IMG/VR virus record: IMGVR_UViG_3300010885_024139
Span: 1-23,683 of that record
Direction: 5' to 3' (one strand)
DNA from: a virus
DNA length: 23,683 nt
The notes under the pieces: model-generated
What the model was told of the DNA's origin: nothing
Seen by the model: the letters and a program-made list of their open reading frames with translations, nothing else
Databases searched by the model: none
Shown here: in pieces, positions 126 to 22,485 of the stretch
Numbering within the stretch: the first letter of the stretch is position 1
How the letters are laid out: each line of letters begins with the position of its first letter
Translations under genes and position numbers: made by a program

Positions 126-3100
126 TTAGGTTAATAGTCGAAGAAGCTTACTAAGCTCAGAGGAAATTTCCTGCTGAGTAAAGTAGTCTCCGCCGGACAT
201 AAAGGACCGCAAGCCAACGGTTGCCTCTTCAGCATCTTTTGCACCGATCTTTTCTGTCACTCGTGACAGCATATCGTCCATAAGATTTTTTAAAGCTGGA
301 GGAAGATCGCTGTAGCGAACCTTCTCCGTTTCGCTACCAAACGGCAGTGGCAGGTTAGCAATAACCTCACCTAAGGCTTTTGCCGAGGAGCGAACATTTT
401 CTATTGCCTGTGGGTTTAGGGCTCCGGCATCTAGTCTATCCACGATACCGATAACATCGTTGGCAGCCTTAGCCGCGTCCTCGTAGTTACCGACCTCGTT
501 GAGTTGCTCTGCCTTTGCCACCTTTTCAACTACGTCCTGCAGACCTGCGTCTCCAAGATCTTGCTTAATACGCGCTAGAACTGTGCGAAACTTACCTTTT
601 TCATCGCGCGGTTGAGTGTCAGGAGTATATTTGCCCTGCGCTTGAGCCTCAACCGCTAGTGTTTTTCCCATGTCATCGCCTAGCTTAGCGGAAAACTCCG
701 CAAGACGCGCGCGTAGATCATCGACCTCTTCGTCTACCATGGAAAGTGATTTCCAGTTTTCTGGGATGAGATCCGGGCGGTCAAACTTACGAGCCATCTT
801 TGAGATGTGGCGGCGAACGGCTGCTCGCTTACCTGGCTTAGAACGACCGTATGCTTGAATTGAGTCCTTTAAGGAATCAAGGTTTGTAATTGGGTAGGAA
901 CCGTCTGGAAGAGCCTTGCCTTCCTTGGCTAGCTTCTCACGCTTTTCGCGAGAGATGTATCCAAAGTTATCCTCGTAGCGAGGAGCTCCGTAGATACGGG
1001 CGTAAGCTTCAGCGGCCTTAATTGAGAGCTGAGCTTCCTTCTCGTCACGAACTTCGTTAAATTTTGCCTTTGCGATATCCGCTTTTGTAGAAAGTTGCGC
1101 ATTTTCTAACTGCTCAAGTTTTTCAATTCTAGAGCTTAAATCTGCAACAGGATCTGACTTCATGCGAGCAAGTACCTGGGCACCTGCCGCAACCAATGCC
1201 ATAACCGCACCTGAGGCTACACGAGCCCGTGCGATAGGAAATCCTGGAACGTTTACCTGGCATACGGCAACGAGCTCAAGTTGTCCCTTGATTGGACGCC
1301 AGTCGCCAGAAGGTGCAGACGCGCGAAGCGCGCGGACCTGCTCTGGAGATGTGCCTGGGCGTAGAGCGCCAGATACCCAGATGCCAAACGCATCCTCGCC
1401 GGCATGAACATCCGCGATTGCTGAGCCAGTATCGTCGTAGTGACGAGCAGCCTCATGCGCTGATGCCTCTAGTGAGGCGTGGCCTCCTGCTAATGTTAGT
1501 TGACCTACAGGAACGTCTGTTCCTTCGTCTGTGCGAACAACACCCGTGTGGAAGTAGGCATACTTGCTCTTTGAGCGGGGTGGCCGAGTTCCAAATGACA
1601 TTCCGATGTGATCTACATGCCATGCAGCGATGTGACCAAACACACGGCCATCGTCATCTACCGTCAATGGTGTTGCCTGGCGTAGTTGCGGATTTTCAAA
1701 CCATGAGGTTGGAGGAGCTATCGGAATAGAACCTGCAACAAGGCCGCAGGCAACAAGCGCTGACGCTTCTACCGGGTCCATCTCATCTGCGTAAACTCCG
1801 TCTGGAATCACGATGTCCTCCTGAGTCTTGTCGTTATTGACAAGGTAGATTTGGCACTCTTGAAACGCCGGTTTAGGCACTAGAGTTACCGCCATGACAC
1901 GCGCATGAGTAATCATGAGCTTGTCTGTTCCAATTTTACCAGCATCTTCATCTTCAGATAATTCAGCTGTCTGCTGACTTGCCTCAAATTGATCTAGGTC
2001 AGCGGAAACTCCACGGATAAAGCCTTCGCGCACAAGACGCTCAGCCTCCTGTCCGTAGGCACCAGAGTCAAAGACTCCGGTGGCATTTCCAATACCATTT
2101 TCAGTGCGTTCCATGAAGTCAATGCGGCCAACGACAACCGATCCGTTATGACCTTCATCTGTCTTGATCTGCCACATCAATGGAAGTGGTAGTTCACGAA
2201 TTTCAATTGCATTCTTCTTGAACTTGCGACCGTCTCCAGACTCTAGGTCTTCAGGGATTACAAGTGGGATGCTAAACGCAGAGCCGTCCGATATCTCTAT
2301 CTCAGCGCCTGCCGTAATAACGCGTGAACGCGCATGTGCGGCCTTGGCAGAAAGTATAGACGCTGCTAGCACGTCTTCATATGAGTTGATACCGTCGATG
2401 GCAAATGCTCCTTTGTTATTTCCTGGGTTGTTCTTATCGCCTGGCCACATACCTGTCACCTCGTGGTGACGTAGGGAGCAATATCCCTTAGCGCGTGGAC
2501 CCATGTACTTCTTCAAGTATCGATAGCAACGTGTCCAATCGCCAGGTGTGTTCCAGCGAATTTTTAGTGCGCCTTTGCCGACTGTCCAGTAGCGACGCAG
2601 CGTCTCTGCGTTTCCTCTGTTTCTATCTGCTCCACCAGCGGCAGTCATTACCATGACGTTTCCGTTAGCGCCCCATAGAACAGTGATGATGTCAGAGTCG
2701 TCGTAGGCAGATGCCACTACCGGGACAATTCCATCAACCTGCTCAATAACACTTTTTAGAGACTCTCCGTCTAATGGAACTACCGGAGGAGGCGTTGGAG
2801 AGTTAAGGTCAGCCAGGATAGTTTCCTCGCGATTCCACTTATTATTTTTACGAACGTAGGTCATAGGGTCCGTGGAGGTAGAGCTTGCAGGAACGAGAGA
2901 GACTAGTTCTAAGACAGCTCCTGGATCATCTTGAGATACAACCGCAAAGAACAACGGCTGAACATCACTAGTTTCTGGAGTAGTCTCTACGGAGCTGCCA
3001 GGCTTAGTAGATTTAACCTTACTATCTTCTTTTTCTTCGTTAGAATCTTCAGAAGCCGCGCTGCCACGAACAACAGGTTGGTAGTATATCTTGTTTGGGT

Positions 3101-4772
3101 AATAGTAGTTGCCGTCTGATCCTTTTACCTTCTTGTTTAAGAAGCTTTTAAGAACAGGGTGCATGTAAGGATCTGTAATTAACTTTATGCCGGTTAGCTT
3201 CTCAAGAGCCTTAATGGTCTCGGACTTTTCAATCTTAGGAGACTGCCCTGGTCCTGTGATAAGCTTTTCTGCCTTTGGTGATGCCGTAGGATTGTTAGTC
3301 TTAAACGCATCCCGCTGTGACTTAACCCAGGCGGGCCAGTCACCCATAATTTTTCCAAGGTCCTCGGGTGATAAGGCTGGAAGAGTTCCAGGGATCCTCG
3401 CGTTAGGGCGGTCAATAGGTGTGCGCGGCTCTCCAAGAATTCCTGATGTGTCTAGTCCTTCAAATTCGATTGGTGCTCGCGTAGAAGACGTAGGCGCTGC
3501 TGTCGCCTCTGGTTCTGTAGCGCGTGCCGGAACGTCTACGATACTGCCAGAATCAAGTTGAACACGCACGCTTTGAGTAGCGGGGTTTAGGGCAATGATG
3601 TTTCCAGCGCCTTTTGCCTTGTCTCCGCCGACAACTACACGTGAACCAACCTTTGAAAATTTGCCGGTCTTGTCGCGCACTTGCTTATCGGCGTTCTTTG
3701 CACGTTCTTCAGGAGTATAGTTTCCGTCTCCTGGAACCGGAGTGCCTGGAGCTGCGGCCGCTGTAACTACTCTATCTATAAAGGTATAGTCAAGCTCCGA
3801 TGCCGCCTTAAGAATCATGTCTGCCTCATCGTAGTTGATGTCAAACAACGAGATGTAGTGTCCTGGGTTTTCCTGCAGAGAGGCAGAGATAAAAAGTGCG
3901 GACTCTGCGTCAATCTCAATGTGGGTCTTTTCAACAATATCATCTGGGTCATCAAGTGCTAGGTCATAGCTAGTAAAGTCTGAGTTTACCTCTGGCATAG
4001 AGTGCCAGAAGCCTGCGTCCCACACGGAGACATTGTATGCATCATCTATCTTGTAGAGACGATCAATTCCTGAGCCGTCCATACGCATGCGGGCAATAAA
4101 TTCAACTGCTCCGTTATCGGTAGCTGCCGCAACCTTAAATGCATCAACGTCCGCGTCGTAGCTAGTGTCAGTTGCATAGTTGTAAGAGTCTTCCTCGTAG
4201 CCGTGATCTGCGTAACCGTCAGCTCTTACGGCTTTTTTGTTCTCGCGCTCGACGATAGCCTGTGCCCATTTCCATCCCGCGTCTCCGCCCCAGAGAGCCC
4301 ACGCAATACGCCCGCGAGAAGGAAAGCCTTTTTCGCCCGGCTGGTAGCCTTCCGCCTTCTTATCAATCTCATGACGAGGAAAATACTTGGCAATATGACG
4401 AACTTTTTCAATCCCAATCTGTCCGCCCTTCGCTAGTGTACGCGCCGAGTTGACGCCGACAGGTGTTCCACCACGGTCATGTTCCTTACGCCATTCAAGA
4501 CCGCGCTTAGCTTCCTCCTGGGCGCCCTTAGGGATGGTGTACATGCGACCAGCGGATGAAACAATACTTACATCTAGTGTTGTTAACGCAGCCTGGGCAA
4601 GCTCGGCAGTTGATTCATCAAACTCGATGCTGTCATCTTTCCATACGGTAGAAGCAACGAGAGCAGATAAAGGGCCAGAGTCAATTACAACGTTTTCTTC
4701 AACGTCAATAACAACGCCGTTGTTCTCGTTAGAGAACAGAACGTGTGAACCATTCTTACCTACGATATCCAT
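126..4772 (-). CDS. Giant head polyprotein with prohead (capsid maturation) protease domain
   Basis: A multi-domain structural protein (1548 aa from the chosen start). Residues about 77-178 hold a conserved phage module (RGGTPVG, FPRHE, IAWALWGGDAG). About 360 is a Q-V-R-D-K-T-G-K-F motif followed by an SH3/KOW-like stretch. About 723-770 is a module with RNRGNAE, RRYW, GDWTRCYR. About 840-935 is the protease, with candidate catalytic H875 (GHNGSVVVGR) and S923 (RGVSADL). About 1018-1178 is an actinophage head-associated module (GRVFGHIAAWH, GEDAFGIWVSGALRP, VPGFP). About 1271-1338 carries KEGKALPDGSYPI and RRHISKMAR, and near 1385 is a second Q-P-R-D-x-x-G-K-F motif. The family assignment of the protease is from memory of actinophage proteins. 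The ATG at 4772 follows the upstream TAA by one base and has a GGGAAGAAG purine run ahead; a TTG at 4814 would add 14 residues and overlap the upstream gene. Expected in the prohead, processing capsid or scaffold. Confidence 0.8.
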   Translation of the reverse strand: MDIVGKNGSHVLFSNENNGVVIDVEENVVIDSGPLSALVASTVWKDDSIEFDESTAELAQAALTTLDVSIVSSAGRMYTIPKGAQEEAKRGLEWRKEHDRGGTPVGVNSARTLAKGGQIGIEKVRHIAKYFPRHEIDKKAEGYQPGEKGFPSRGRIAWALWGGDAGWKWAQAIVERENKKAVRADGYADHGYEEDSYNYATDTSYDADVDAFKVAAATDNGAVEFIARMRMDGSGIDRLYKIDDAYNVSVWDAGFWHSMPEVNSDFTSYDLALDDPDDIVEKTHIEIDAESALFISASLQENPGHYISLFDINYDEADMILKAASELDYTFIDRVVTAAAAPGTPVPGDGNYTPEERAKNADKQVRDKTGKFSKVGSRVVVGGDKAKGAGNIIALNPATQSVRVQLDSGSIVDVPARATEPEATAAPTSSTRAPIEFEGLDTSGILGEPRTPIDRPNARIPGTLPALSPEDLGKIMGDWPAWVKSQRDAFKTNNPTASPKAEKLITGPGQSPKIEKSETIKALEKLTGIKLITDPYMHPVLKSFLNKKVKGSDGNYYYPNKIYYQPVVRGSAASEDSNEEKEDSKVKSTKPGSSVETTPETSDVQPLFFAVVSQDDPGAVLELVSLVPASSTSTDPMTYVRKNNKWNREETILADLNSPTPPPVVPLDGESLKSVIEQVDGIVPVVASAYDDSDIITVLWGANGNVMVMTAAGGADRNRGNAETLRRYWTVGKGALKIRWNTPGDWTRCYRYLKKYMGPRAKGYCSLRHHEVTGMWPGDKNNPGNNKGAFAIDGINSYEDVLAASILSAKAAHARSRVITAGAEIEISDGSAFSIPLVIPEDLESGDGRKFKKNAIEIRELPLPLMWQIKTDEGHNGSVVVGRIDFMERTENGIGNATGVFDSGAYGQEAERLVREGFIRGVSADLDQFEASQQTAELSEDEDAGKIGTDKLMITHARVMAVTLVPKPAFQECQIYLVNNDKTQEDIVIPDGVYADEMDPVEASALVACGLVAGSIPIAPPTSWFENPQLRQATPLTVDDDGRVFGHIAAWHVDHIGMSFGTRPPRSKSKYAYFHTGVVRTDEGTDVPVGQLTLAGGHASLEASAHEAARHYDDTGSAIADVHAGEDAFGIWVSGALRPGTSPEQVRALRASAPSGDWRPIKGQLELVAVCQVNVPGFPIARARVASGAVMALVAAGAQVLARMKSDPVADLSSRIEKLEQLENAQLSTKADIAKAKFNEVRDEKEAQLSIKAAEAYARIYGAPRYEDNFGYISREKREKLAKEGKALPDGSYPITNLDSLKDSIQAYGRSKPGKRAAVRRHISKMARKFDRPDLIPENWKSLSMVDEEVDDLRARLAEFSAKLGDDMGKTLAVEAQAQGKYTPDTQPRDEKGKFRTVLARIKQDLGDAGLQDVVEKVAKAEQLNEVGNYEDAAKAANDVIGIVDRLDAGALNPQAIENVRSSAKALGEVIANLPLPFGSETEKVRYSDLPPALKNLMDDMLSRVTEKIGAKDAEEATVGLRSFMSGGDYFTQQEISSELSKLLRLLT

Positions 4773-4773
4773 T

Positions 4774-5364
4774 TTACTTCTTCCCTGGTTCATTATTTCT
4801 AGGTTGAGCGTCAAACACTATGTCTCCTACAAAACTGTCTGCGGTTTGGCCGTCCATGTAATCTAACAGCCACGCATTAGGGCCATCTGGGTCTACCGAG
4901 CCGAGCGCCGCAAATACTAGCTCAATCATACCAGAGGCTGTGATTTCTTGCTCTGGATCCTCGCTTGCAAGCTGCTCGTAGAGTTCAGGGTAGTCTTGAA
5001 ATACCTGGTCAATGTCGTCCGAGGCAATTGCCATAGACGTTCCTGTTTTCTTGCCATTTACTGCTGATTCTGCACGGGCAAGCGCGATCTTTTCACTTTT
5101 AACCGCGATCTTTTCATTTAATTCTTCAGTTGCCTTAGAGAAGAAAAAGTTAATTAGACCGGCGGTAGAAAGAGCAAGATAGTCATCTACTGTGAGGCCT
5201 TTAGTCTTGCTGGACATTTCCATGATTCTTGCGACACGCTTCTTAGAATCAAACATGGCGTTATTGTCATCTTCAAATACGTAGGAGAAACCTTTGTCTG
5301 TGGCAACGATGGAAAACATATGCATATCATCTGTAAGATCATATGCGCGTACTACTTTTATCAT
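4774..5364 (-). CDS. Hypothetical head-operon protein, 196 aa
   Basis: I do not recognise this family. The protein is soluble-looking and acidic in its C-terminal half. A central helical, charge-alternating stretch (about residues 75-105, KATEELNEKIAVKSEKIALARAES) could form a coiled coil. The N-terminus (MIKVVRAYDLTDDMHMFSIVA) resembles a compact alpha/beta start. The C-terminus, DAQPRNNEPGKK, faintly recalls the Q-P-R-D-x-x-G-K-F motif of the neighbouring head proteins, but the match is too weak to lean on. The ATG at 5364 is preceded by GGAGATAGACACA, a good ribosome-binding site, 12 bases after the giant gene's stop. The stop is one base before the protease ATG, so the genes are almost certainly co-translated. 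A scaffold, decoration or assembly-chaperone role is possible from position only. Confidence 0.75.
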   Translation of the reverse strand: MIKVVRAYDLTDDMHMFSIVATDKGFSYVFEDDNNAMFDSKKRVARIMEMSSKTKGLTVDDYLALSTAGLINFFFSKATEELNEKIAVKSEKIALARAESAVNGKKTGTSMAIASDDIDQVFQDYPELYEQLASEDPEQEITASGMIELVFAALGSVDPDGPNAWLLDYMDGQTADSFVGDIVFDAQPRNNEPGKK

Positions 5365-5376
5365 TGTGTCTATCTC

Positions 5377-8300
5377 CTAGTCCCAGTACCTATTTTTAAG
5401 AACGTTCTTAAATTCTCCGTGATTAGAGCCATCTGGCTTAAGTAGAGCGTCTAGGCGAGAGTTAATTGCAGCTCGGTAGTTGTCTACGCTGCCCCAACGG
5501 TCAATCAACATGTCAAGTTCCTTGCCTGTAGGCAATATACTATCTCCCTTTAGCGCTTCTCTCATGCGATTAGCTTCATTTTGGAATATTGCTAAAAGTT
5601 CATCTTCCTTTAGCTTCTGTGTAAGAACTGGCATCGTTGCAGCGTAGACGCTATCTCCGCGAACAGACATAATATCTTCTATTCTAAAGTCGTCTAGTCT
5701 GCTTGGCTTAAGCTGCGCTAGGGCGTGATCAATAGGAAGAACTCGAATACGGGTTGGGTCGCGGCCGTCAACTGCTAGAAGAACATTTCCGTTATGACGA
5801 TCTTCATTGTTAATAATAAGATCAAGTAACGCCATGCGAACAACGTCCTCGGGTGCGTATAGATTACTTGCTAAACTTTCTTCTTTAAACAGTAATCTAG
5901 AACCATCATTACGAGTGATGCCGCCACGTCTATACACCTTAGCGGCAACCTCAGGTGCGCTTCCAAGATTCATGCTAGACCCAGCCTGCTGCATTACAAG
6001 AGCCCCGTTTGTGCTTGTAACAGTTCTTGTCTCATAGGCACCTTGCATGTTTAGAGCTCTAATCAGTATTCCTGCTTCTGCTTCAGCCTGTGGCGCGTCG
6101 ATTCCATAGTCTTGTGAAAGCTGATCTTGCTTGACATAGAAGACTTGACCGGAGTCCGTGTGTGTTACTAGATAGGTCTCGTTATAGCCAGACTCGTCAT
6201 GACCAAGTACACGAGAACTAAATCCGGGAACCTGATTATTTACGATAGCTTGATAGTCAGCTGCCGCTAGCTCATCTCCCACGCCGAAGTTCCTTGCAGT
6301 CATACGTGGATTATCGGCGTATTCTTCTGCATCTAAGGCAGTACGAAGTTGGAATACATCATTAAGAGGAAGTTCACGTCCTTCTCCTTGTAAAATCTGC
6401 TCGCTTACATAGAGGCTTAGTGCATTCTTGGCTGCCGGTGATAGCACAGCTAAAGAACGATTGTTCTGTAAGACATCGCGAATCTCTGCCATATATGGCT
6501 GAAGGGCTGGATTATTTGTTTCAAACTCGTTGCTGTTTGCTTTAAGTGCAAACTCACGAGAAACATTTGGTTTATTTTCTTTTGCCTCTACGCGCTTGCG
6601 AGCCGCGCGAATCTGATCATAGTTAATTGATTGTATCTGCTCCTTGGCGGTAGGGTCAAGTCTCTTAACACCCATCCATCCATTGCGCGACATAAGTTCT
6701 TTACCAGCCCAGGTCTTTGCGCCAGGATACCAGCCGACAAGTGCAAGTTCCATAGGTGTAGGTGTCTTGTTAAGATCTAGTCCGCCATCAGTAAGTTTAG
6801 CAGCATTTGCTTTTTCTATTAGACGGTCTATCTGCGCAATTTCGCCATCTTTTGTAGCAGAGCGACGCATAGCTCTTAGACGTGAAAACACTTCGCCTTC
6901 TGCTCTTGTAGGTGTCTCCCAGTTAAATCCGTTCAATGCCCATACAAATCCGCCTTGGTATCCGCCGCCGGCAGCTGCCTGAACGTGAATTTCCTTAACC
7001 CCATTAGCGATGTACCAGTCTTCCATAAAACGGTTGTATGCTGTAGCAAACCCAGACTTCTTATCCTTAGCATTGTTTATGCCTAGATAGTTATTTTTTA
7101 CCATCCACTCATAGTTCTTATCTTCAGTGCTAGGGTTGGTAACTTGCTTGCCGCTAATCGTTCTACTTACCGATCCAATAGTTCTACCGTTAGCGTCAAG
7201 AACATTCATAGAGACACTAAGACTCATCGGTTGATTTCCAGATTCTAGCTCTTCCTTCGTTCCACCCAGAAATATACTAAATCCGCCAAATGACAGAGAG
7301 TACTTGTTACTTCCAAAAGTTACACTGTCGCGAACACCGTATGTGTCCTTCATCATGGCGTCAAGAATTTCTTTTTTCTTAGTTACTTCTAGCGATAACC
7401 TTTCTTTTTCCTCTTGTGAAATAGGTTCTCTATTCGCTAAGACAGCAAGCTGGTAGTCAATAGCTGCCTGCTTAATGCTTTCAAGTTTTACACGATCACG
7501 TCCAGCTCTGGCAATTTCCCCTGCACGGAGTCCCCACACAGAGAAATCGCTTTGCTTTGCATCGGGATTGACAAATTCCTTTAGGCGATCTGGTGTAGTC
7601 CCGAGATCATTAACACCTTGGATATTTCCTTCAGTTGCGATAGCGCCAGGGTTTAGAGCTAGAGCGTTTAGACGTTCTGAAACATCTGGAATTGGTGGAG
7701 GTGTAGGCGCTTGTCGTTGAGCTTCATTAGGAGCTATTTGTTGAGCGTCTCCAATTGCTCTTACCTTAAGCGCAGAGCGGACTGCAATTGTTCCATCGTC
7801 AAAGCGAACACGAACGTAAGGAATACGTTCTCCTGTGCGCGAGTCAATATTTTGAACTGCGATTACCGTTCCGGTGCGTCCATCGCGAGAAGCACGAATA
7901 CGAGTTCCGTTGCCCATAACCTTTCCGGTAATGTCAAGTACCGTGTTATCTACGTTGTATCCGCGATTTTCTGGTCCAGGATATTGAAGAGTAGGTGTGG
8001 CAAGAGCAGGTGTATCTACACTTGGGTCTCTTGGCGTATCTGCTGAGTCAGCTGGAGGTTCTGGCTGAACAGCAGGTGCGTCTGGAGTGTAGCTGCCTAT
8101 GCGCTCAGACATTGCAGACGACTCTTCTGGAGAAAGCTGACGCCAACCTATGTTAGCACCAGGGCCATCAAACCATGCAGGGCTTACACCGGAGTAGCTA
8201 CTTGTGATGCCATCACGAGAAGAAAGAAAGATAATTACTCTATTTTCGTCGGTGTATTCAGTTGCAACTGCAATCATAGCTCTGCCGTTGTCGTCTTCTT

Positions 8301-11300
8301 CGTACACTCCAACAACTTTATTTTCAGGGCCAAAGCCATTGCTAAACGCGCGAGCTACCTCACCAGCGAGGTCATTGAGAACTGCGTTATTCGCAAAAGG
8401 AGCAAAATCTTGTTCTGGAGTTTCTGGAGCTTGACGTTCTCCCGTGGTTGGCGGACCAACGCGGGCTGGGTCTTCATTAAGTGTGCGTGCGTATGCTGAT
8501 TCTAGGCGGCGAACTTCTTCACGAGTAATTCCAAGGTCTCTTGCAACCTTCTCAAGTGAGTCACCGGTTGCCATGCGACGTTCATAGATTTCTTTACCGC
8601 TGGCGCCTGCTGAAGGAGTCTCGGAAGCTTGGCCAAATATTCCTGCTCCTGCAACTTCTGTAATTGCATCAATGATCTCTGCATCATCGGCCTCGGACCA
8701 ATCAACAAGTCCTTCTTGATCTATAGCATCGCGAATCTTGTCTGCTGTGTCATCATCGACAGAGCCGCCAGCTTGCTCTACAAGATCTTGAATCATCTGA
8801 GAGTGTCCCTGAAGAGTCCGTGTTTCCGAAGCCTGAGGCTGTTCTACTCTGTCTAAGTTAGGGATAAATCCGTCGTCCATTGCCTCATCGCCGTTGGCAG
8901 CCTGCTTGATGTATCTGCCAGCTTCTCTAAGAGTTCTCTTTGCCTCCTGTAGATCTTCATCTCTAACGACTATCTGAATTCGATTATTGTTACCCTTGTT
9001 GATAAGAGCGCCTTCATACACGTTACCAATCTTTACTAAGTTAAGCTCGAACTCTGCGCCATTTTTATCTTTTATTTTTTGGTTAGAGATCTGTTCTGGA
9101 AGAAGAGAGGTTAAGTCCTCAGACATGTCGTTTGACTCCTTCTTAAGATCAAGAAGAAGCTGATTGGTGTTTATACCTTTAAGCTGCAACGCGTCACGTA
9201 TTGCCTCGATTGGGACCTCAACCGTGATGTTGTCAAACGCTAGAAGAACAACACCTGAACCGTCGGTGATGCCTGCTATAAATTGCTCGATAAGATCCGC
9301 AACCTCGTAGTCACCTGCAATTATCTCTGGGTTGTCTGTATATCCGTTTTCATCAAGGTCCGGTTGTGATGGTATATATGCCTGTGGGTTAGGTATGTAA
9401 TAGTCAGGGTTCTCAAAGTCAATTGCGATGTTTTCAATGAGTGAACCAGGCAGAGGCTCAGGTGAGGATGCCTGCTTCTTATTTGCGACTGGAGAGTCAC
9501 CAGGCTCAGATACCTCCTTTAGCTGACGAATCTCTTGAACGATGTCGTCTACAAGCTGCGCCTCCTCAGCTGAAGGGACTCCACCTTGTGCTTCAATAAG
9601 TCTATTAAGGTTGTTGTTGTTTCCGTTAGCTGAATCGTAGATGTTAGCAATTACACGATTTGGATCTAGTCCAGCCAGATATAGAGCGTTATATAGCGCC
9701 TCAGCCGGGACAAACTCGGCGCCAGCGTTAAACTCTAGCTGACCTGCACCCGAAGGAACTCCCATACGAACTGAGGCAATATCTACGCTGTCTGGAAGAT
9801 CTGCAGGATCAACAACGTCATCGTTGTCATCAACATTAGCGTTAAGAATATCTGCAACAGCAGAGTCATCAGAGTTACCAAGAAGCGCCTGTGACATTCC
9901 GCGCACGAGTTCCTGCGGGGTATATCGTGTTGCTATGATTTTAGGGTTGTCATCGTAGTCTGTTGACTTTTCATCAACGCGACCTTCAGGCTCGTAGTCT
10001 ACTGTGCGAAGCTTAAATGCACCTTCTGGCACGTCAAAGTTTTGAAATAAAGGTGGTGCACTTGGGACGTTAGGGCTAGGTGTCTTAGGAGGAGTTCCGC
10101 CTGAAGGAGGAGTAGGCGGCTCGTCTGGCGCGTCATCTACAATGATCGGGTTGTCCTCGGCAAAGGTTCTGTTGAGATACTCAACGATTCCTGGAACGCC
10201 GTTCTTGTTTACGTCTTCGAGAGACTCAAACCTCCGCAGGGGACCGCGGCCGTCTGTCCCTGGCTCTGGAGTCCAGCCATACCTGGATCCTGCCTTGTAG
10301 GTTCCGTCAGGATTTTGCTGTGCAAGTATCTGGTATGTTCCGCCATCGCGCTGTGGCATCTCACGAATGTAGTTAGTATCCGACGCGTCGTTTGGATCGC
10401 GTGTCCAACCTTCAGGGACAGGCTTTCCAAAGAGATCTCTGTTGGCTGGAAGTTCCTGCGGCTGCGGAGCTGCTTCATCACGCGCGCGATTTTCCTCGGC
10501 ACGTTGGCGCTGCATCTCAATTAAGTCTGCTGGGTCAACTACATCAGATTCTTTAGCACCAGGAATTCGACCAATAGGAAGTTGGCCTTCTTTTTCCTCT
10601 GCTTGAATACGCGCAATTTCCTTTTCAAATTCTGGTTGATCCTTCTCAATCATCTTGTTGACTTCTTCCCAGCTTCGAGGCTCGCCTATGGTGAGTCCGC
10701 CAAGACCGCCGTTAGCGTCAATACGCTTAAGAAACTTAGGACTTCCGTCTCGCCCAGGGATAACAGCATAGTTGTCGTCTGAAGCCCAGAAGGAACGTTG
10801 CCATGTCCATCCGATAGGAGTTTCTCGACGTCCTGCCTTTACCTGTTCAAGACTTGGAATATCCTTGTCAAATTGTCCTTCAAATGTTCCCTGCTCTGGA
10901 GCCTTCATTCCTGGAATACGTGCTTGATAGACTACTGCGTTGTTGCTGTTAATAGTGTAAAGACCTGATGGAATTTGTGGAACTCCCTGAACATGAATAA
11001 GACCGGTATCGGTAGTTAGAGAAGACCCTGTGCCCGAGCGCTCGATCTTAGACTCTCCGCCAGCACCAATATAGGTGCCACGACCTGTAACTATGGAGCC
11101 GTCAGGCATACGGAAGCGGAAGTTTACGCCGCGTCCCATCTCAACCCAGCGGCCTAGACGATCACGCCACTGCAACGCAACGCGGGCACGCTTTGCGGCA
11201 GATGAGTTGCCACTGCTAAACGCGGCAACGATAGCTGAGAGATTATCGATCTTAAAGTAAGATGCAAGAAGAGTCTTGCTCGCGTTTAGTCGAGCAAACG

Positions 11301-11787
11301 CGTGCTCGCGCTCGATTGAGCCTGGAGCTGCTGAGTGAGCGGAGGCAACTAGAGGACGAATTGACTCGTGAATAGAAGGATCAGCCGCAATCCACTGCGC
11401 GTTCTTCTTAAGAAACTCTTCAACGGAGATAGACGCGTTAAGAGTAGATAGTGGGTGACCTGCAACTAGTAGATCTATGTTATCTGTCTGGCTAGACGTG
11501 AACGTCTTTGTTGCAACGTTGAGGAAGCGTGACACCTCCTTGAGGACCGCAAAGCTGCGTGCCTCATAATCTAGCGATGATAGACTTGCGAGAGAACGGT
11601 TCATTACTGTAAGCGCGGAGCGTGGAGTTACATGACGCTCTTGAGGCAACTTAGAGTTTACATCCTTAACAAGTGCAAGAACCTGCTCGTGAAGAGAAAG
11701 GACAGGCATGTAGTTGCTGTCATTCTTCTTGCGCGCGGCCTTGCGCTTAAGTGTGCGCTCAATCTTCTCGTTTAGAGGTGCGTCCAC
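5377..11787 (-). CDS. Giant polyvalent-type virion protein with C-terminal PI3/4-kinase-like domain
   Basis: A protein of 2136 aa. The N-terminus (1-200) is helical and basic, and is followed near residue 206 by QWRDRLGRWVEMG, a variant of a motif also seen in the protease polyprotein. A Pro/Asp/Glu-rich middle contains two clear copies of a module starting near 610 (DDNPKIIA) and 815 (TDNPEIIA). A helix-turn-helix-like segment lies near 1063-1100 (SLEKVARDLGITREEVRRL), a KOW/SH3-like strand region near 1275-1345, and a possible GNAT-like region near 1510-1640. The C-terminal domain from about 1855 has kinase hallmarks: VK at K1886, catalytic-loop-like NNEDRHNGN with D1996 and N2001, and a metal-binding IDHA with D2020, closest in memory to type II PI4-kinase/HipA-like folds. 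The GTG start shares its G with the previous TAG (TAGTG) and has GGGAG upstream. It probably travels in or on the head; a role in host takeover after injection is inference. Confidence 0.8.
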   Translation of the reverse strand: MDAPLNEKIERTLKRKAARKKNDSNYMPVLSLHEQVLALVKDVNSKLPQERHVTPRSALTVMNRSLASLSSLDYEARSFAVLKEVSRFLNVATKTFTSSQTDNIDLLVAGHPLSTLNASISVEEFLKKNAQWIAADPSIHESIRPLVASAHSAAPGSIEREHAFARLNASKTLLASYFKIDNLSAIVAAFSSGNSSAAKRARVALQWRDRLGRWVEMGRGVNFRFRMPDGSIVTGRGTYIGAGGESKIERSGTGSSLTTDTGLIHVQGVPQIPSGLYTINSNNAVVYQARIPGMKAPEQGTFEGQFDKDIPSLEQVKAGRRETPIGWTWQRSFWASDDNYAVIPGRDGSPKFLKRIDANGGLGGLTIGEPRSWEEVNKMIEKDQPEFEKEIARIQAEEKEGQLPIGRIPGAKESDVVDPADLIEMQRQRAEENRARDEAAPQPQELPANRDLFGKPVPEGWTRDPNDASDTNYIREMPQRDGGTYQILAQQNPDGTYKAGSRYGWTPEPGTDGRGPLRRFESLEDVNKNGVPGIVEYLNRTFAEDNPIIVDDAPDEPPTPPSGGTPPKTPSPNVPSAPPLFQNFDVPEGAFKLRTVDYEPEGRVDEKSTDYDDNPKIIATRYTPQELVRGMSQALLGNSDDSAVADILNANVDDNDDVVDPADLPDSVDIASVRMGVPSGAGQLEFNAGAEFVPAEALYNALYLAGLDPNRVIANIYDSANGNNNNLNRLIEAQGGVPSAEEAQLVDDIVQEIRQLKEVSEPGDSPVANKKQASSPEPLPGSLIENIAIDFENPDYYIPNPQAYIPSQPDLDENGYTDNPEIIAGDYEVADLIEQFIAGITDGSGVVLLAFDNITVEVPIEAIRDALQLKGINTNQLLLDLKKESNDMSEDLTSLLPEQISNQKIKDKNGAEFELNLVKIGNVYEGALINKGNNNRIQIVVRDEDLQEAKRTLREAGRYIKQAANGDEAMDDGFIPNLDRVEQPQASETRTLQGHSQMIQDLVEQAGGSVDDDTADKIRDAIDQEGLVDWSEADDAEIIDAITEVAGAGIFGQASETPSAGASGKEIYERRMATGDSLEKVARDLGITREEVRRLESAYARTLNEDPARVGPPTTGERQAPETPEQDFAPFANNAVLNDLAGEVARAFSNGFGPENKVVGVYEEDDNGRAMIAVATEYTDENRVIIFLSSRDGITSSYSGVSPAWFDGPGANIGWRQLSPEESSAMSERIGSYTPDAPAVQPEPPADSADTPRDPSVDTPALATPTLQYPGPENRGYNVDNTVLDITGKVMGNGTRIRASRDGRTGTVIAVQNIDSRTGERIPYVRVRFDDGTIAVRSALKVRAIGDAQQIAPNEAQRQAPTPPPIPDVSERLNALALNPGAIATEGNIQGVNDLGTTPDRLKEFVNPDAKQSDFSVWGLRAGEIARAGRDRVKLESIKQAAIDYQLAVLANREPISQEEKERLSLEVTKKKEILDAMMKDTYGVRDSVTFGSNKYSLSFGGFSIFLGGTKEELESGNQPMSLSVSMNVLDANGRTIGSVSRTISGKQVTNPSTEDKNYEWMVKNNYLGINNAKDKKSGFATAYNRFMEDWYIANGVKEIHVQAAAGGGYQGGFVWALNGFNWETPTRAEGEVFSRLRAMRRSATKDGEIAQIDRLIEKANAAKLTDGGLDLNKTPTPMELALVGWYPGAKTWAGKELMSRNGWMGVKRLDPTAKEQIQSINYDQIRAARKRVEAKENKPNVSREFALKANSNEFETNNPALQPYMAEIRDVLQNNRSLAVLSPAAKNALSLYVSEQILQGEGRELPLNDVFQLRTALDAEEYADNPRMTARNFGVGDELAAADYQAIVNNQVPGFSSRVLGHDESGYNETYLVTHTDSGQVFYVKQDQLSQDYGIDAPQAEAEAGILIRALNMQGAYETRTVTSTNGALVMQQAGSSMNLGSAPEVAAKVYRRGGITRNDGSRLLFKEESLASNLYAPEDVVRMALLDLIINNEDRHNGNVLLAVDGRDPTRIRVLPIDHALAQLKPSRLDDFRIEDIMSVRGDSVYAATMPVLTQKLKEDELLAIFQNEANRMREALKGDSILPTGKELDMLIDRWGSVDNYRAAINSRLDALLKPDGSNHGEFKNVLKNRYWD

Positions 11788-13817
11788 TAGATATCTCCCT
11801 TACGCTTCCTTGGAAGTAAGTCTGCATCCTTAGATTCATAAAGTTTTGTCGCTAGGGTATATGCTCGCTCAAACGGGATATCCCCGTCTCTGACACCGCG
11901 TAGCCATGCTCCGCGTAGCGCTGGGATTGCCTCATATCCTAGAGATGAATACTCGGCCATCGCATGAATAGCGTGCTCCGGTGAGCCGTACTCGTCTGCA
12001 GATCTAAGTGCGATAGATAGAAGTTCATGTTGCATTATTGATGCCTCTGCGCGAGATGATCTAGGATGCGCCTTAGGCAAAAGATCGTTGTCCTGCTTGT
12101 AATTTGGATTTGCAGGAGAGCCAGACCTTAAAAGTTTAAGGAACGCGTTAACACGTGCCATTGCCCAGCCGTCACGCGTCATACCTGGTCGGTGACTAGA
12201 TGAGAACGCACCTGAGCCTCTACGATAGACAGCCTTTAACATCGGAAGAGTTGCCTTACGTCCAGGCTTTGCGTTTTCGTTATGCGCCTCTACCTTATTG
12301 CGAAGACCAGCCTCTGTTCTTGCGGAGAAAACAATCTTCTTAGATCCAGCTGCAGATCCTGGCTTGTTTGTTTTCGAGCCGTGAATGCGATCTTTCTTTG
12401 GAGCAGGCTTAGAGCTTGCCGCGGTTATAGGTCCGCCGACTGCCCACGCGTTACATGTGCGTGTAGCCGCACACTTGAAGTCTAGTGCCTCGCAGTAGCC
12501 AAGATCGGCTTGGTCGATAGCTGCGTCAGCGTCTACCGCACTTGAGTCACCTTGCTCTAATCCTGATGATATACAGTCAAGCATCTTTGGGGTGCGAATA
12601 AAGAATACACAGTTTCCGCACACCGCGGTCTTTGCTTCCTCAGCAGTTGTCTTCCACTTGTCAGCTTTTTCCTGCCAAAATTCTTCGTTTGGTTCTTGAG
12701 GATTCAACGGGCCGTAGCCAACGTTGTCAATTGCATTTTGACGATTCTTTAGGTTAACTTGAATATCCTGTGTTGCGACAGGACATGCGTCAGGTTCAAC
12801 GGCAGCGGTGATCTGGCTGTCTTCAACCTTAACTACTCCGTCAGGGATAACCGCAAAGCGGCACTTGCCGTCGTCTTCAATTGGTTGCTCAATAATCTTG
12901 CAAACACCTGGACCTTCGTAGAGTACACAGTTGATGCACTTAACTCCAATGTCCTTATATTCGTTCTCAGCAGCAGGAGTGTATCCTGCCCAGATACCTG
13001 TGCGGTCCTCGTTAAACTTTCCATATTTGTCAGCGATCTCTAGTAGAGCTGCGGCAAGATCTTGTTCCTCGGCGACGATAACTCCCGCTGCCTGAAGAGC
13101 TTCAGTTTGTTGCTCTTGAAAAGAAAAATACATGTCCTGCGAGCTATATTGTCCATATTCGGTTGCAGAGAGACATTGGGTACACACACAACCGGAGTCA
13201 CATAGGCACTGTCCTCCGTCACATCCTGGGCATACACAGCCAGCAACACCGCATAGTGGGCAACCGTCTGCATCATCCATAAGCTGTTCAACAACAGGAG
13301 TGTCTCCTGCGTCTAAAAGTTCAACAGCTTCAGATTTTCCCGGCATACCTGAATCACTAGGTGTTAGGTAGGCACTGATCTGCCAACGCCATTTCTTGTG
13401 CATGTCATCACGCTCTGCAAGGAAGTTAAGAACACCTTGCTCGTTGTAGTTGGTGGCAACCTCTAGGGCTTGGCCAATAACCGCGATGAGTATATCATTT
13501 GCCGCGTGGAGATCTTGCAGCATAAGCATAGGGTCGTTATTAATGTCCATGTCCTGTGTTTGATTTAGAGCAATAAAGTCTTGAAGCTTATACGGAGCGT
13601 TGCTTCCCATCTTTAACATTAGCTCTGCTAGTGGATCTACTGAGCTATAAACATCCTCGTAGATCTCCTGGAAGAAGTCGTGGAACTCTGCGAAGTCACG
13701 CCCTTTAACGTTCCAGTGATGACCATGCGCCTTAAAGTACATAGTTACGGCGCTGCCTAGAACTACGGCAATTGAGCCGCTAAGCTCTGAATGGCTAGAG
13801 TCTTGATTTTGATGCAT
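11787..13817 (-). CDS. Dps/ferritin-like domain fused to cysteine-rich and phage head-associated modules
   Basis: A protein of 676 aa. Residues about 10-152 match Dps (mini-ferritin): HGHHWNVKGRDFAEFH, then SVDPLAE. By alignment from memory with E. coli Dps, ferroxidase ligands correspond to H34, H46, D61 and E65; the usual D67 position is Q50. Residues 186-215 hold ten cysteines in thirty positions. C294, C297, C306 and C319 form a four-cysteine module like high-potential iron-sulfur proteins. C400, C403, C415, C442, C449 and C455 form another phage cysteine module ending CNAWAVGGPI. Residues 497-585 carry a phage head-associated module (YRRGSGAFSSSHRPG, RVNAFLKLLR, DNDLLPKAHP). The ATG overlaps the portal stop (TAATG) behind AAGGAG, implying coupled translation with portal. 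It is therefore likely a structural or packaged protein that may bind iron, zinc or DNA; whether the cysteines hold Fe-S or Zn is unknown. Confidence 0.82.
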   Translation of the reverse strand: MHQNQDSSHSELSGSIAVVLGSAVTMYFKAHGHHWNVKGRDFAEFHDFFQEIYEDVYSSVDPLAELMLKMGSNAPYKLQDFIALNQTQDMDINNDPMLMLQDLHAANDILIAVIGQALEVATNYNEQGVLNFLAERDDMHKKWRWQISAYLTPSDSGMPGKSEAVELLDAGDTPVVEQLMDDADGCPLCGVAGCVCPGCDGGQCLCDSGCVCTQCLSATEYGQYSSQDMYFSFQEQQTEALQAAGVIVAEEQDLAAALLEIADKYGKFNEDRTGIWAGYTPAAENEYKDIGVKCINCVLYEGPGVCKIIEQPIEDDGKCRFAVIPDGVVKVEDSQITAAVEPDACPVATQDIQVNLKNRQNAIDNVGYGPLNPQEPNEEFWQEKADKWKTTAEEAKTAVCGNCVFFIRTPKMLDCISSGLEQGDSSAVDADAAIDQADLGYCEALDFKCAATRTCNAWAVGGPITAASSKPAPKKDRIHGSKTNKPGSAAGSKKIVFSARTEAGLRNKVEAHNENAKPGRKATLPMLKAVYRRGSGAFSSSHRPGMTRDGWAMARVNAFLKLLRSGSPANPNYKQDNDLLPKAHPRSSRAEASIMQHELLSIALRSADEYGSPEHAIHAMAEYSSLGYEAIPALRGAWLRGVRDGDIPFERAYTLATKLYESKDADLLPRKRKGDI

Positions 13818-15547
13818 TACTTTACTCCTTCTTGTGGTTCCTGTAGCGCTGCTGGCAGTTCTTCTTCAACTGGCTCCGGCGCAGGGGCAGGTGTTGCGCC
13901 TTCTAGAATCTGTTGAATCTCGGGAGGAACGGGCGAGGCAGACTCAGCCTGCTGTGCATCGCGGACAGACTTCATAACGTCTGGAGCGATGGCTCCGATC
14001 ATTGCCTCTGTAAGTTCTGGTGAGAGGCTGCCCTTCTCTACGAGCATGCGGATGGCAAGCTCTGTTGAGTCTGGAGCGTCGGCGGCCGCAAAGCCGTGAG
14101 CGCGACGCCATGTCTCGTATGAGACTGCCATCTTTTCAAATCCTGAGTCAGCGTCCGCTGCACGGTCATTACGTGTGGCAACCTGTGAGGGATCAAACCA
14201 AACGGTGATACGTCGAACGTCCTCCTCGGCAAACCCTCCCGCTAAAAGAGCAGGGCGTAGATATGCAACTGTAAGCGCGTCGGCGATAAGAAGCATCAAC
14301 GGTTCGATGTGGGACTTGTATAGCGCTTCATCAATTTGAAGAGCGTTCGAGTATTTCACATTGGCAAGACCAGTAACTATATCCTTTGGAACATCTAGAC
14401 CTTGAAGGATACGTTCTAGCACACGGTCTGCACGTTGAGCCAACGCAGGGTCGAACGAACGCTCAAACTTAAACTGCTTAATCTTGTCGCCAAGTTCCGC
14501 AGGTCCTCGAATAATAAGTGGAACAACCGCCGATGCGGAGTCCTCGTCACGAATTGGAGTCGTCATTGCGTCCATGAGTTGGTCCTCAAACTCATCCGCT
14601 GCCTCCTCGGCAGTCATGCCAGGATTTAGATCGTTCTCGTCATCATATGGGTAATCAGGATCTGGAGACGCGGCAACGGCAAGGCCGTCTGGGAGATATA
14701 AGGCTCCGGCGTTTAGACGTGAGCGCGCGGTAGCGCGAAACGTGCGGTTAAGCAAAAGTAGCTCTGAGCAAAGATCAAGCAGACCGCGCAACGAGGAATC
14801 AGCCTCTTCAGAGTAACGAGGGTGAGCTCTCCAGATACGACCAACGAAAGCGGTGTTAGGAAGCTTAGCTGCGTTAGCGCCTGAGCGAGAAGACGAGGTT
14901 CCGATAATGTCGCGACGAGGAACTATGACATACGCGTTCTTGGAGTCAAGTTGCAGCTCGTCTGTTGAGCGAATGTCCCAGGACTCCTTAATTCCTGAGC
15001 CTTTGCGCTCCGGCGATTGAACAAGATAACATTCGCCTGTAACTGAAAGATTAAGGGCTGCATCCTTTAGAAGACCAGCCTGTCCGCCGTATGCGGAGTC
15101 TAGACGTGATAGCGCGCGCTCAGCTGCCGCGGCAAGACGCGAATCAATGACGTTGCTGTCGCGAGCAGGGACTGGACTTTCCGCAGGGTTATCAACTACC
15201 GCCGCGTATAGACGAATACGTGAAACTACAGATGCAACTAGGTTAAAGGCATACTTGATTTCGCCGATGGCGTCATAGTATTCCCAGGCTTCACTTTGCC
15301 AGTCACTTGATCCGCCGGTGCGGCGTTGCTTAAATCTTTCAACCTCGCCCTTGTCGTTAATCTGCAACTGAACTGCCGCGGCTGTAAGAGCGCGAGGAGC
15401 AGAGTAAGGAACTGCCTGGGCGTAGGTGACACCTTGGTAGACTACAGACGCTGGCTTAACATCACGAGGTGCCTGTGCGGTGATACGACGAGGACGGGAA
15501 TTGGAGCCTGAAGGCTTCTTACTATTATCCTTAGAGAATAGTCCCAC
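13817..15547 (-). CDS. Portal protein
   Basis: A 576-aa protein that forms the dodecameric ring at the head vertex through which DNA is packed and ejected. It matches actinophage portal proteins: an N-terminal basic, disordered tail (KKPSGSNSRPRRI); an entry segment DAIGEIKYAFNLVASVVSRIRLYA; a core with GECYLVQ, RIWRAHPRYSEEADSSLRG and LDLCSELLLLNR; the region FERSFDPALAQRADRVLERILQ; and GLDVPKDIVTG, KYSNALQIDEALYKSHIEPL. Length fits the family (about 450-600). The C-terminal 40 residues are Pro/Glu-rich. The start is GTG at 15547 with GAGGAG seven bases ahead. It begins 39 bases after the DUF1360 gene and its stop overlaps the next gene's ATG. The order terminase, portal, protease agrees with the standard head module even though lysis genes intervene. 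Confidence 0.93.
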   Translation of the reverse strand: MGLFSKDNSKKPSGSNSRPRRITAQAPRDVKPASVVYQGVTYAQAVPYSAPRALTAAAVQLQINDKGEVERFKQRRTGGSSDWQSEAWEYYDAIGEIKYAFNLVASVVSRIRLYAAVVDNPAESPVPARDSNVIDSRLAAAAERALSRLDSAYGGQAGLLKDAALNLSVTGECYLVQSPERKGSGIKESWDIRSTDELQLDSKNAYVIVPRRDIIGTSSSRSGANAAKLPNTAFVGRIWRAHPRYSEEADSSLRGLLDLCSELLLLNRTFRATARSRLNAGALYLPDGLAVAASPDPDYPYDDENDLNPGMTAEEAADEFEDQLMDAMTTPIRDEDSASAVVPLIIRGPAELGDKIKQFKFERSFDPALAQRADRVLERILQGLDVPKDIVTGLANVKYSNALQIDEALYKSHIEPLMLLIADALTVAYLRPALLAGGFAEEDVRRITVWFDPSQVATRNDRAADADSGFEKMAVSYETWRRAHGFAAADAPDSTELAIRMLVEKGSLSPELTEAMIGAIAPDVMKSVRDAQQAESASPVPPEIQQILEGATPAPAPEPVEEELPAALQEPQEGVK

Positions 15548-19593: not shown

Positions 19594-19623
19594 ATTATAT
19601 CAGGTAGATCAGGATAATGTAAC
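19594..19623 (-). promoter_or_regulatory. CCTGATATAAT-type promoter (copy 3)
   Basis: Minus strand: GTTACA (19623-19618, 4 of 6 to consensus), 18-base spacer, extended -10 TGATATAAT with TATAAT at 19599-19594. CCTGA occurs twice, once eleven bases upstream, as in copy 1. An inverted repeat AGGTAG/CTACCT spans the -35 region. It overlaps the terminase stop codon and drives the 93-residue membrane gene. Confidence 0.6.
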
Positions 19624-21017
19624 TACCTAACGCGGAAGGTGTTTCTAAGACCAGGTATTTTTCTACCGGCTGGGGACTTAGCCGTAATCTTCCCACCAAC
19701 GAATCCCGCCGGTGGTTTTATGAGTAGAGCCGTAAGGGCGTGAACCAAGGCATCAACGCGGTCAGGTGATTTACCTTCGCCTGGAATCCACGAGGTCATC
19801 TGGGACTCAAGGTCCGCTAGGTAGCCAATGTGGTGAACACGATTCTGCTCGTAAGCTAGTGTGATTGGCTCAGCTCTAAGAGCTTTGCCGTATTTGGAGT
19901 GAACCTCGAGGACCTTTACAGATGGGTCAATTGTGTTAATGGCGCTGCGAACGAGTGCACCGCCTTGGTTTACCTCCGCGATAACAGGGCAACCCCACTT
20001 GCGAGCCATAGCTACTACCTTGTTTGCCCATACATCAGGTGAACCTAAGATTGAAGCATCCTCAAGTACCCAGCTCTGACGTTTGTAAAGATCTCTATCG
20101 CCAGTTGAAGCTACAACAACGATGCCGCACTCATCTCTTGGATTTTCAGCTACTGATGGGTCAACACCTATGCAGCGAAGCGGAGCGCCTTGCGGCATAA
20201 CAAGCTCTCGTGTCTTATCGATAAGTTCTACAGTCCAGAGCGCACCCTCAACATCTGAAAGCATCTCACCGTAAAGTTCCTGTGCAGCTAAACGAGTTCC
20301 TTCGTATACTCCAAGGATACCGTCCATGTAGGCCGCAGAAAGGTTTCCGCTGTTGTCCATGGTTGAGCCTTTAGTAATGATAACCTTGCTAGGATTTGTA
20401 TCGGCCTCACGAAGAAGCTCATACAACAGCGGCACACGTTTTGGAGTTGTGGTAATCATAATCTTAGGATTTTTCCCAAGACGAGTACCGATACGTAAGT
20501 TTTCAAATGCCGTAAGCCCAGCTCCATCTGGAGTCTGACGCCAAGCTGCAACCTCATCTCCCCAGGCATGTGTAAATTGGGGACCACGAAGAGAGTCTGG
20601 CTCATCTGCCGTGAAGCATGTTGCGGTATTACCGTTAGGCCAAGTTAGTCTTCGCTTAGATGGTTCGTATAACGGACGCTCACTTGGAGGTGTTACGTTA
20701 ATAATTCCTGATTCACCCTCAACGATAACGTCACGAACATCAGCTGCGGTACGAGCTACGAGTGCGAAACGACGTTGACCGGTAGTTGTGTACTTAGCTT
20801 CTTCACGCACCCACTCTGCTGCAGTGCGAGTCTTACCAGCACCGCGACCAGCAAGGTACATCCAGATATTCCATTCATCGCCGGCAGGACGTTGCTGTTC
20901 AGGACGTCCCCAGAAACTCCAGTCCCATTGAAGAGCGTCTGGATCTAAACCTGCTAGAACTTCAATACGCTCTTCGTCAGACATAGCGGCAATAATTTGT
21001 GCAAGACTTTTAGCCAT
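19623..21017 (-). CDS. terL: Terminase large subunit (packaging ATPase-nuclease)
   Basis: A 464-aa motor protein that pumps DNA into the prohead through the portal and cuts the concatemer. ATPase domain: Walker A GRGAGKT at 57-63, adenine-side region, Walker B AWGDE with D154 and E155, and coupling motif TTTPKR at 189-194. Nuclease domain of RNase H fold: IGVDPS with D286, VIAEVNQGG with E348, and SPDRVDALVHAL with D422. Length is normal for the Terminase_6-type family. All key residues are present. No small subunit is adjacent. No Shine-Dalgarno precedes the ATG; TACTAT lies seven bases upstream, suggesting a leaderless mRNA, and a 12-base palindrome GTACTATAGTAC covers that box. HDAC-like and phosphatase genes lie directly upstream. 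Confidence 0.96.
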   Translation of the reverse strand: MAKSLAQIIAAMSDEERIEVLAGLDPDALQWDWSFWGRPEQQRPAGDEWNIWMYLAGRGAGKTRTAAEWVREEAKYTTTGQRRFALVARTAADVRDVIVEGESGIINVTPPSERPLYEPSKRRLTWPNGNTATCFTADEPDSLRGPQFTHAWGDEVAAWRQTPDGAGLTAFENLRIGTRLGKNPKIMITTTPKRVPLLYELLREADTNPSKVIITKGSTMDNSGNLSAAYMDGILGVYEGTRLAAQELYGEMLSDVEGALWTVELIDKTRELVMPQGAPLRCIGVDPSVAENPRDECGIVVVASTGDRDLYKRQSWVLEDASILGSPDVWANKVVAMARKWGCPVIAEVNQGGALVRSAINTIDPSVKVLEVHSKYGKALRAEPITLAYEQNRVHHIGYLADLESQMTSWIPGEGKSPDRVDALVHALTALLIKPPAGFVGGKITAKSPAGRKIPGLRNTFRVR

Positions 21018-21971: not shown

Positions 21972-22485
21972 TTGTCTTGTCCAACGTTCGAACGTATACT
22001 TCAAACTCATCGTTGAATAGAACATACTTAGTTCTTTTAGTGCGAAGAAGAGTGATAGCCTCATCAGCCGTGTAGCCAGCTTCAATAAGAACAAGAGCTG
22101 CAGTTAGACCGGAGCGGTTTAACCCAGCTTGGCAACGAATCAAAACTCTCTTGCCAGCTTGCCACTTGCTAAGTGCAAAGCTTACCGCACTATCTAAAGC
22201 TTCCTTGTCGATGTGCTCTACATCTGAATCATAAAAACCAAAGCGTAGTTCCTCAACTAACCAGTCAACTGGATTTGCCCATGCGTAGAGAGTTACTACC
22301 GCATCAAAGTTTTCCTTTGTAATTGCCTTAGGGAGATTTAGGTTTGAAGACTGTTCAATTGTATCGAAGTCATCTGTGCCACCTACCCATAAACCTGGCA
22401 GGATCTCGCTGTGCAGAGGAAAGTCCCAGTCATCAATTTGATGAACCGGTGCGTATCCTTCGTTTGTTTCAATGAGCTTTGCCAT
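21964..22485 (-). CDS. Dual-specificity-type protein phosphatase
   Basis: A 173-aa cysteine phosphatase. The P-loop is RCQAGLNRSG, fitting C-x5-R with C118 and R124, followed by the helix LTAALVLIEAGYTADEAITLLR, typical of DSP/PTP-like proteins. A general acid is likely D86 or D88 in FYDSDVEH. The N-terminal EILPGLWVGGTDDF is the usual start of the DSP fold. The residue before the cysteine is R117, where most family members have His; this may alter cysteine pKa or substrate choice. Probable substrates are phosphoproteins, but RNA 5'-phosphate or phosphoinositides also occur in the family. The ATG has AAGGAG upstream. Co-translated with the HDAC-like gene. Confidence 0.9.
   Translation of the reverse strand: MAKLIETNEGYAPVHQIDDWDFPLHSEILPGLWVGGTDDFDTIEQSSNLNLPKAITKENFDAVVTLYAWANPVDWLVEELRFGFYDSDVEHIDKEALDSAVSFALSKWQAGKRVLIRCQAGLNRSGLTAALVLIEAGYTADEAITLLRTKRTKYVLFNDEFEVYVRTLDKTNE

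Follow-up and report, generated by a model that had tools for sequence, protein, structure and literature searches.

Ferritin-like proteins enclosed in virus-like shells are known from the encapsulins, where ferritin-like cargo occupies an HK97-fold shell, as in EncFtn and in IMEF systems with a ferredoxin (PMC5012862, PMC8346489). The mini-ferritin Dps is also known as a stand-alone phage gene in Lactobacillus plantarum myophages (PMC6669764) and, as DPS, in the 'Gratiaviridae' (PMC8008677), and ferritin has been listed among the genes for defence against reactive oxygen species (ROS) in freshwater phages (PMC6802176). Phage ferritins are usually read as host helpers during infection. Here we describe a Dps that is fused to other parts of a phage head operon. 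The gene lies in the virus record IMGVR_UViG_3300010885_024139, from a lake virus of bacteria, and positions 1 to 23,683 of that record (~23.7 kb) constitute the window, the whole stretch of DNA that was analyzed. The 676-amino-acid (aa) product begins with a Dps domain and continues through three cysteine-rich modules, the second resembling high-potential iron-sulfur proteins (HiPIPs), into a basic C-terminal module (the C-module). We favor the reading, at a probability of roughly 0.58, that the protein is a head polyprotein in which the mini-ferritin would be cargo handling iron or peroxide.

The Dps domain and its metal ligands

The fusion protein and its parts are as follows, with the type of support in brackets.

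11787..13817, minus strand: 676-aa fusion of Dps, cysteine cluster, HiPIP-like module, six-cysteine module and C-module (open reading frame (ORF) with ATG start, translation, 442 viral relatives)
13365..13796, minus strand: Dps mini-ferritin domain, residues 8-151 (Pfam, PHROG, PDB, AlphaFold, Foldseek)
13623..13718, minus strand: ferroxidase-centre stretch H34...H46...(Q50)...D61...E65 (conservation in phage Dps domains)
13173..13262, minus strand: metallothionein-like cysteine cluster, residues 186-215, CxxCx4CxCxxCx4CxCx3CxCxxC (cysteine conservation)
12813..13100, minus strand: module H1, residues 240-335, with a HiPIP-like four-cysteine core at 294-319 (profile comparison, shuffle control)
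12801..12812, minus strand: ITAA boundary motif, residues 336-339, putative prohead-protease site (enrichment at module boundaries; junction in the major capsid protein)
12447..12785, minus strand: module H2, residues 345-457, with a six-cysteine core at 400-455 (identity to a gene of phage DSL-LC01)
12417..12428, minus strand: ITAA boundary motif, residues 464-467, putative prohead-protease site (enrichment at module boundaries)
11790..12416, minus strand: basic C-module, residues 468-676, with a DUF5824-like core (Pfam and homologues)

What an earlier note on this DNA had called a Dps-like domain is a true Dps in sequence and fold. Residues 7-151 match the Pfam Ferritin family (1e-12, 48.6 bits, cut-off 24.5) and the Dps part matches PHROG 3636 (8e-21). 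Dps chains are the top PDB matches, among them the solved Dps 3iq1 at 1.4e-12. The note had asked for a structure prediction of this part. In the full-length AlphaFold (AF2) model, built from 46 aligned sequences, the Dps part has a pLDDT of ~95 and forms a four-helix bundle (8-36, 42-69, 96-123 and 127-151) with a short helix (78-84) between B and C. Foldseek ranks Dps structures first, with a best TM of 0.87-0.94 over the Dps chain.

Four of the five ligands of the inter-subunit ferroxidase centre of Dps (H34, H46, D61 and E65) are present in the sequence, with Q50 in the fifth place, just as had been noted. All four are unchanged in 130/130 phage Dps domains, and position 50 is E in 31 of these and otherwise G, A, Q, S, N or L. 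The same position is E or D in 28 of 29 bacterial Dps proteins. As read from these alignments, the ligand pattern says that metal binding is probably kept and one side of the ferroxidase centre altered. Pairwise dN/dS of the Dps part is 0.07-0.20, and the domain is under strong purifying selection. Together with the occurrence of relatives of the 676-aa protein on hundreds of viral contigs, this selection indicates that the fusion ORF is not a product of chance.

Binding of packaged DNA, one of the functions suggested earlier, appears less likely for the Dps part, because its N-terminal tail (residues 1-15) is free of Lys and Arg and the net charge of residues 1-155 is -13; a Lys/Arg-rich tail for DNA binding is a feature of only certain Dps proteins. 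A role as a DNA-condensing protein acting through a basic tail was considered, and the charge of the Dps part gives it no support. In a tree with 29 bacterial Dps sequences, all from one class (Gammaproteobacteria), the phage Dps domains form one clade apart from this bacterial sample with 100% support. A scan of genome contigs for bacterial relatives of the phage Dps returned one match, on a contig that is itself phage-like.

Head-gene context and fusions among relatives

Two further scans yielded 131 non-redundant related phage Dps loci, which were tallied using hidden Markov models built for this analysis together with manual reading of the neighbors. A head-gene context was found for 104/131. 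Dps directly follows portal in 71. In 35 of these it is fused to the C-module, and contig ends truncate part of the remaining 36; one further Dps is fused to the C-module on a contig without portal. In 22 loci Dps is fused to a head-maturation protease of the S78 or XkdF type, in five it lies between terminase and portal (the gene order at L188 is terminase, Dps, portal, scaffold), and in five it adjoins or is fused to other head genes.

The protease fusions are apparent in Pfam, with Ferritin and Peptidase_S78 in one ORF at loci L135, L140, L177, L193, L200, L201, L208, L225 and L226, and Ferritin and Peptidase_S78_2 (XkdF) in one ORF at L164 and L169. Dps can precede or follow the protease in the fused chain, and the L135 fusion sits between portal and an HK97-type capsid gene. 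Several 'Prohead protease' entries from uncultured phages match the model of the window protein in a Foldseek comparison with viral models. Given the starred branches of the tree, the protease-fused state must have changed three times or more, and on this tree protease fusion arose several times. Such recurrence makes carriage in the virion more likely: with the same mini-ferritin repeatedly fused to shell-building proteases, phages probably load an iron or redox protein into their heads.

Dps could instead be an auxiliary stress gene, a late-infection sink for iron and peroxide in the host cytoplasm whose place in the head operon would serve no purpose but late expression. This is how the stand-alone Dps of gut and Lactobacillus phages was interpreted (PMC8008677, PMC6669764), and the ferritin listed for freshwater phages (PMC6802176), the conserved metal ligands, and the 27/131 loci without a recognized head neighbor all agree with it. 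Recurrent fusion to prohead proteases and head-operon modules, and a fixed place after portal, would nevertheless be unexpected of a free cytoplasmic enzyme, and we regard this explanation as improbable.

Additional domains occur next to Dps at several loci. At L135:4325-6265, L140:3860-5806 and their relatives, a single ORF contains a domain resembling HAD enzymes or polynucleotide kinase-phosphatases, then Dps, then the S78 prohead protease. A 1021-aa ORF at L211:2762-5824 combines Dps with a zeta-toxin-like kinase domain that PHROGs places in minor head proteins. Head-maturation proteases and nearby proteins repeatedly contain a small Hva1_TUDOR domain (PF11160) next to Dps (L169, L193, L201, L128, L134).

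The earlier judgment that the fusion is unusual is upheld, although it missed both the modularity of the fusion and the absence of Dps from many relatives. The same modules are separate, or fused to other head proteins, in related phages. The lake phage DSL-LC01 (OQ999401), predicted to infect actinobacteria, was assembled from a metagenome (PMC10611076). Its C-module and H2 module are separate genes of the same head operon, its capsid maturation protease (L263:2612-5167) carries an H1 HiPIP-like module at the C-terminus, and no Dps was found in its head region as read. In L075-L077 and L122, a gene of its own immediately behind portal encodes a Dps of ~157 aa, and in L074 Dps and the cysteine cluster together form a separate ORF. 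Relatives that lack Dps can still keep its first helix, joined to the cysteine cluster in L018 and L026 and to the HiPIP-like module in L032; these leftovers appear to be remnants of an in-frame loss or deletion. In L004, identity is only 53% over the Dps part against 84-96% over the other modules, a sign that the Dps part has been exchanged. The absence of Dps from relatives, with remnants left behind, indicates that Dps is a dispensable cargo.

The same remnants bear on a structural use, in which the helical bundle would be an oligomerization scaffold for head assembly and its metal binding vestigial. The degenerate fifth ligand of the phage domains fits this idea, as do adjacency to portal and fusion to proteases. 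Yet H34, H46, D61 and E65 are invariant in 130 domains despite an overall identity of ~50% or below, and close relatives do without Dps, some retaining no more of it than the first helix. The 12-mer cages that known Dps proteins form are tetrahedral, a symmetry that does not match a 12-fold ring. We consider a purely structural use very unlikely.

Accessory modules, boundary motifs and proposed processing

The ten cysteines in thirty residues that had been pointed out are confirmed at positions 186, 189, 194, 196, 199, 204, 206, 210, 212 and 215. Nine of the ten vary little or not at all across the 29 aligned relatives with the cluster; in place of C199, ten of the 29 rows have S or V. The repeated CxC and CxxC and the high cysteine content are metallothionein-like; no Pfam match was obtained up to an E value of 1, and thus no homology to a known metallothionein family was found.

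Module H1 has four cysteines (294, 297, 306 and 319) that are invariant wherever the module is present, and its proposed likeness to HiPIP withstood a control. Profile comparison by hhalign against a HiPIP profile of only three sequences gave 95.9% and a score of 40.9. The likeness exceeds cysteine spacing alone, because 30 cysteine-preserving shuffles scored at most 16, and on these profiles the relationship holds. No H1 passed the curated Pfam HIPIP model, the best of 23 members reaching an E value of 0.0098. The weak HIPIP match of the window protein itself (0.22, 12.3 bits, under the 22-bit cut-off) falls in H2.

The six-cysteine module that had been recognized, H2, is 57% identical to L079:23140-23607. 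Its cysteines 400, 403, 415, 442, 449 and 455 are invariant wherever the module is present, as is cysteine 345. H2 was rejected as a HiPIP (hhalign 8%), although the DSL-LC01 annotation reads 'high potential iron-sulfur protein'.

The cysteine modules may alternatively be zinc-binding or disulfide structural elements rather than Fe-S or metallothionein-like ones, with Dps an unrelated cargo. This is a tentative possibility that falls short of even odds and is compatible with the cargo reading. No cysteine module matches a Pfam family above its cut-off, and AlphaFold confidence is low (pLDDT 37 for residues 228-472 modeled alone, a model that is uninformative on these modules); the alignment of H1 with HiPIP over the four-cysteine core, beyond cysteine spacing, argues the other way. 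A sequence-profile search of PDB with the cysteine modules returned only a splicing-factor match of no significance.

The C-terminal part (467-676) had been labeled a head-associated module. The label is corrected to a module related in sequence to DUF5824 (Pfam, 3.6e-6) and to head-operon proteins of other phages. It is 64.5% identical to WJZ48509 of DSL-LC01, a homologue lies between portal and the capsid gene in Roseobacter phage CRP-823, and residues 467-600 carry a charge of +17.

A short motif, [TSAVLI][TASV]A[AGSV], occurs upstream of four module starts in 85/120 distinct sequences, against a background of 10% in random 16-mers from the same proteins. Its strict form, [ILVM]TA[AGS], is found seven times in the head proteins of the window, where shuffling predicts ~1.4; the other ORFs examined, which are phosphatase-like and deacetylase-like, contain it twice. 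Across 80 loci of the related major capsid protein, the variable, acidic pro-region meets the capsid domain at ITAG|ADIPG with hardly an exception, although the flanks vary (L263:5845-7785 and L264-L343). We read [I/L/V]TA[A/G] as a candidate recognition site of the prohead protease that would also direct cleavage of the 676-aa protein at 338/339 and 466/467. Since the motif is found both at module boundaries and, in the related major capsid protein, where scaffold and capsid meet, we infer a prohead polyprotein that is cut apart inside the head.

The following course of events is proposed. The 676-aa polyprotein would be translated right after portal and would enter the prohead, probably by way of its conserved basic C-module. 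The capsid-maturation protease would then cut it at [ILV]TA|[AG]-like sites, leaving three pieces in the head with the DNA: Dps with the cysteine cluster and HiPIP-like module, the six-cysteine module, and the C-module. The Dps part, with its main metal ligands kept, would bind Fe(II) and consume peroxide or O2, and the cysteine modules, acting as its redox partner or as a sink for metal, might bind metal or an Fe-S cofactor. The phage would probably gain either by shielding its DNA from Fenton chemistry, while packaged or just after injection, or by managing iron in the cell it infects.

Several results weigh against a mini-ferritin cargo processed in the head. The window protein has Q50 in the fifth-ligand place. 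Many relatives have no Dps, which is not essential for assembly, and the 27 loci without a recognized head neighbor are joined by the distant Dps of the cultivated Streptomyces phage Gilson and Aeromonas phage BUCT695, which lie outside the head operon. Because the searches started from phage Dps, the tally may contain too large a share of head-linked lineages, and lineages outside the head operon are under-sampled. Neither the full-length nor the partial models contain a confident structure for any cysteine module. No strict motif lies between Dps and the cysteine cluster, at a fifth anchor, where the C-terminal helical part begins, the motif is present in only 2/15, and the boundary motifs could in part reflect linker composition.

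The head operon and its comparison with known systems

All main genes of the window are on the minus strand, in the order terminase, lysis-like genes, portal, 676-aa protein, 2136-aa protein, 196-aa protein and 1562-aa protein. The earlier placement in a head operon agrees with portal directly upstream and terminase in the window.

13817..15547, minus strand: portal gene, directly upstream of the 676-aa gene (PHROG 776 portal, 9e-107)
13815..13829, minus strand: TAATG stop/start overlap and AGGAG Shine-Dalgarno within the end of the portal gene (sequence)
5377..11787, minus strand: 2136-aa protein, directly downstream of the 676-aa gene (ORF; positional counterpart of the DSL-LC01 3289-aa protein)
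4774..5364, minus strand: 196-aa head-operon protein (homologue fused to module H2 in relatives)
126..4814, minus strand: 1562-aa protein matching DSL-LC01 capsid maturation proteases (synteny and similarity; boundary motifs present)
19623..21017, minus strand: terminase large subunit (Pfam Terminase_6N, 7.7e-22)

The ATG of the 676-aa gene begins with the base that ends the portal stop codon (TAATG) and is preceded by AGGAG 8-12 bases upstream, which makes translational coupling to portal plausible. Its own stop overlaps the start codon of the 2136-aa gene (TAGTG). The DSL-LC01 counterpart of the 1562-aa protein has only a sub-threshold match to Peptidase S78.

Other genes of the window were also observed. 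A 348-aa protein (21048-22094, minus strand) contains a full histone-deacetylase-family domain (Pfam Hist_deacetyl, 1.9e-55), and its gene is overlapped by a dual-specificity-phosphatase-like gene (21964-22485, 1.8e-9). A 188-aa protein (22558-23124, minus strand) has a proteasome-family (Ntn hydrolase) match (Pfam Proteasome, 3.9e-8). Near the C-terminus of the 2136-aa protein (residues ~1980-2040) is a kinase-like PI3_PI4_kinase match of 3.5e-4, under the cut-off.

Phage Dps genes are already known, and the searchable literature yielded no account of a Dps joined to a head protein or a head protease; databases already contain such fused proteins under automatic names. Recurrent fusion of one Dps clade to different head proteases and head proteins suggests a mini-ferritin inside some phage particles. 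Whether virions carry and deliver an iron- or peroxide-consuming cargo becomes testable, with relevance to iron in lake viral particles, and the boundary motif, as proposed, would supply a cleavage rule for many uncharacterized head polyproteins of these phages.

Bacterial Dps proteins (Vibrio cholerae 3iq1, Thermosynechococcus 2c41) have the same fold with the short B-C helix and the four ferroxidase ligands, at 21-24% identity to the window Dps in the fold alignment. Unlike them, the phage Dps forms a separate clade, has a degenerate fifth ligand, is acidic without a basic N-terminal tail, and is fused to head and cysteine modules. The stand-alone phage Dps proteins examined (L. plantarum myophages, 'Gratiaviridae', Gilson, Aeromonas phages) are of the same family and phage-encoded, but are unfused, lie in replication or accessory regions, and are only 25-33% identical in the matched parts. 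HiPIPs (Pfam HIPIP) have in common with module H1 the C-x2-C ... C ... G-x-C pattern and profile similarity, whereas H1 is internal to a head-operon fusion, has a shorter second cysteine spacing and is under the Pfam cut-off. DSL-LC01 has the same head operon, with H2 and the C-module as separate genes and H1 on its capsid protease; it differs in the Dps, which was not found in its head region.

The encapsulins also place a ferritin-like protein, sometimes with an Fe-S partner, in an HK97-fold shell. In the present case a tailed-phage head, served by portal, terminase and maturation protease, takes the place of that shell, and the putative Dps cargo is fused to head proteins rather than provided with a targeting peptide. 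Membership in an encapsulin cargo system, defined by a shell that lacks phage packaging genes, was considered and set aside, as terminase and portal are present in a tailed-phage head operon. A more speculative proposal, which we hold to be doubtful, is that the head is an iron and redox compartment in which ferritin-family cargo and HiPIP-like and metallothionein-like modules would be released by the protease and delivered with the DNA, as a viral counterpart of ferritin-loaded encapsulins. The parallel with those nanocompartments, which derive from HK97-type capsids and also house ferritin-like cargo, would concern the mode of working and not membership.

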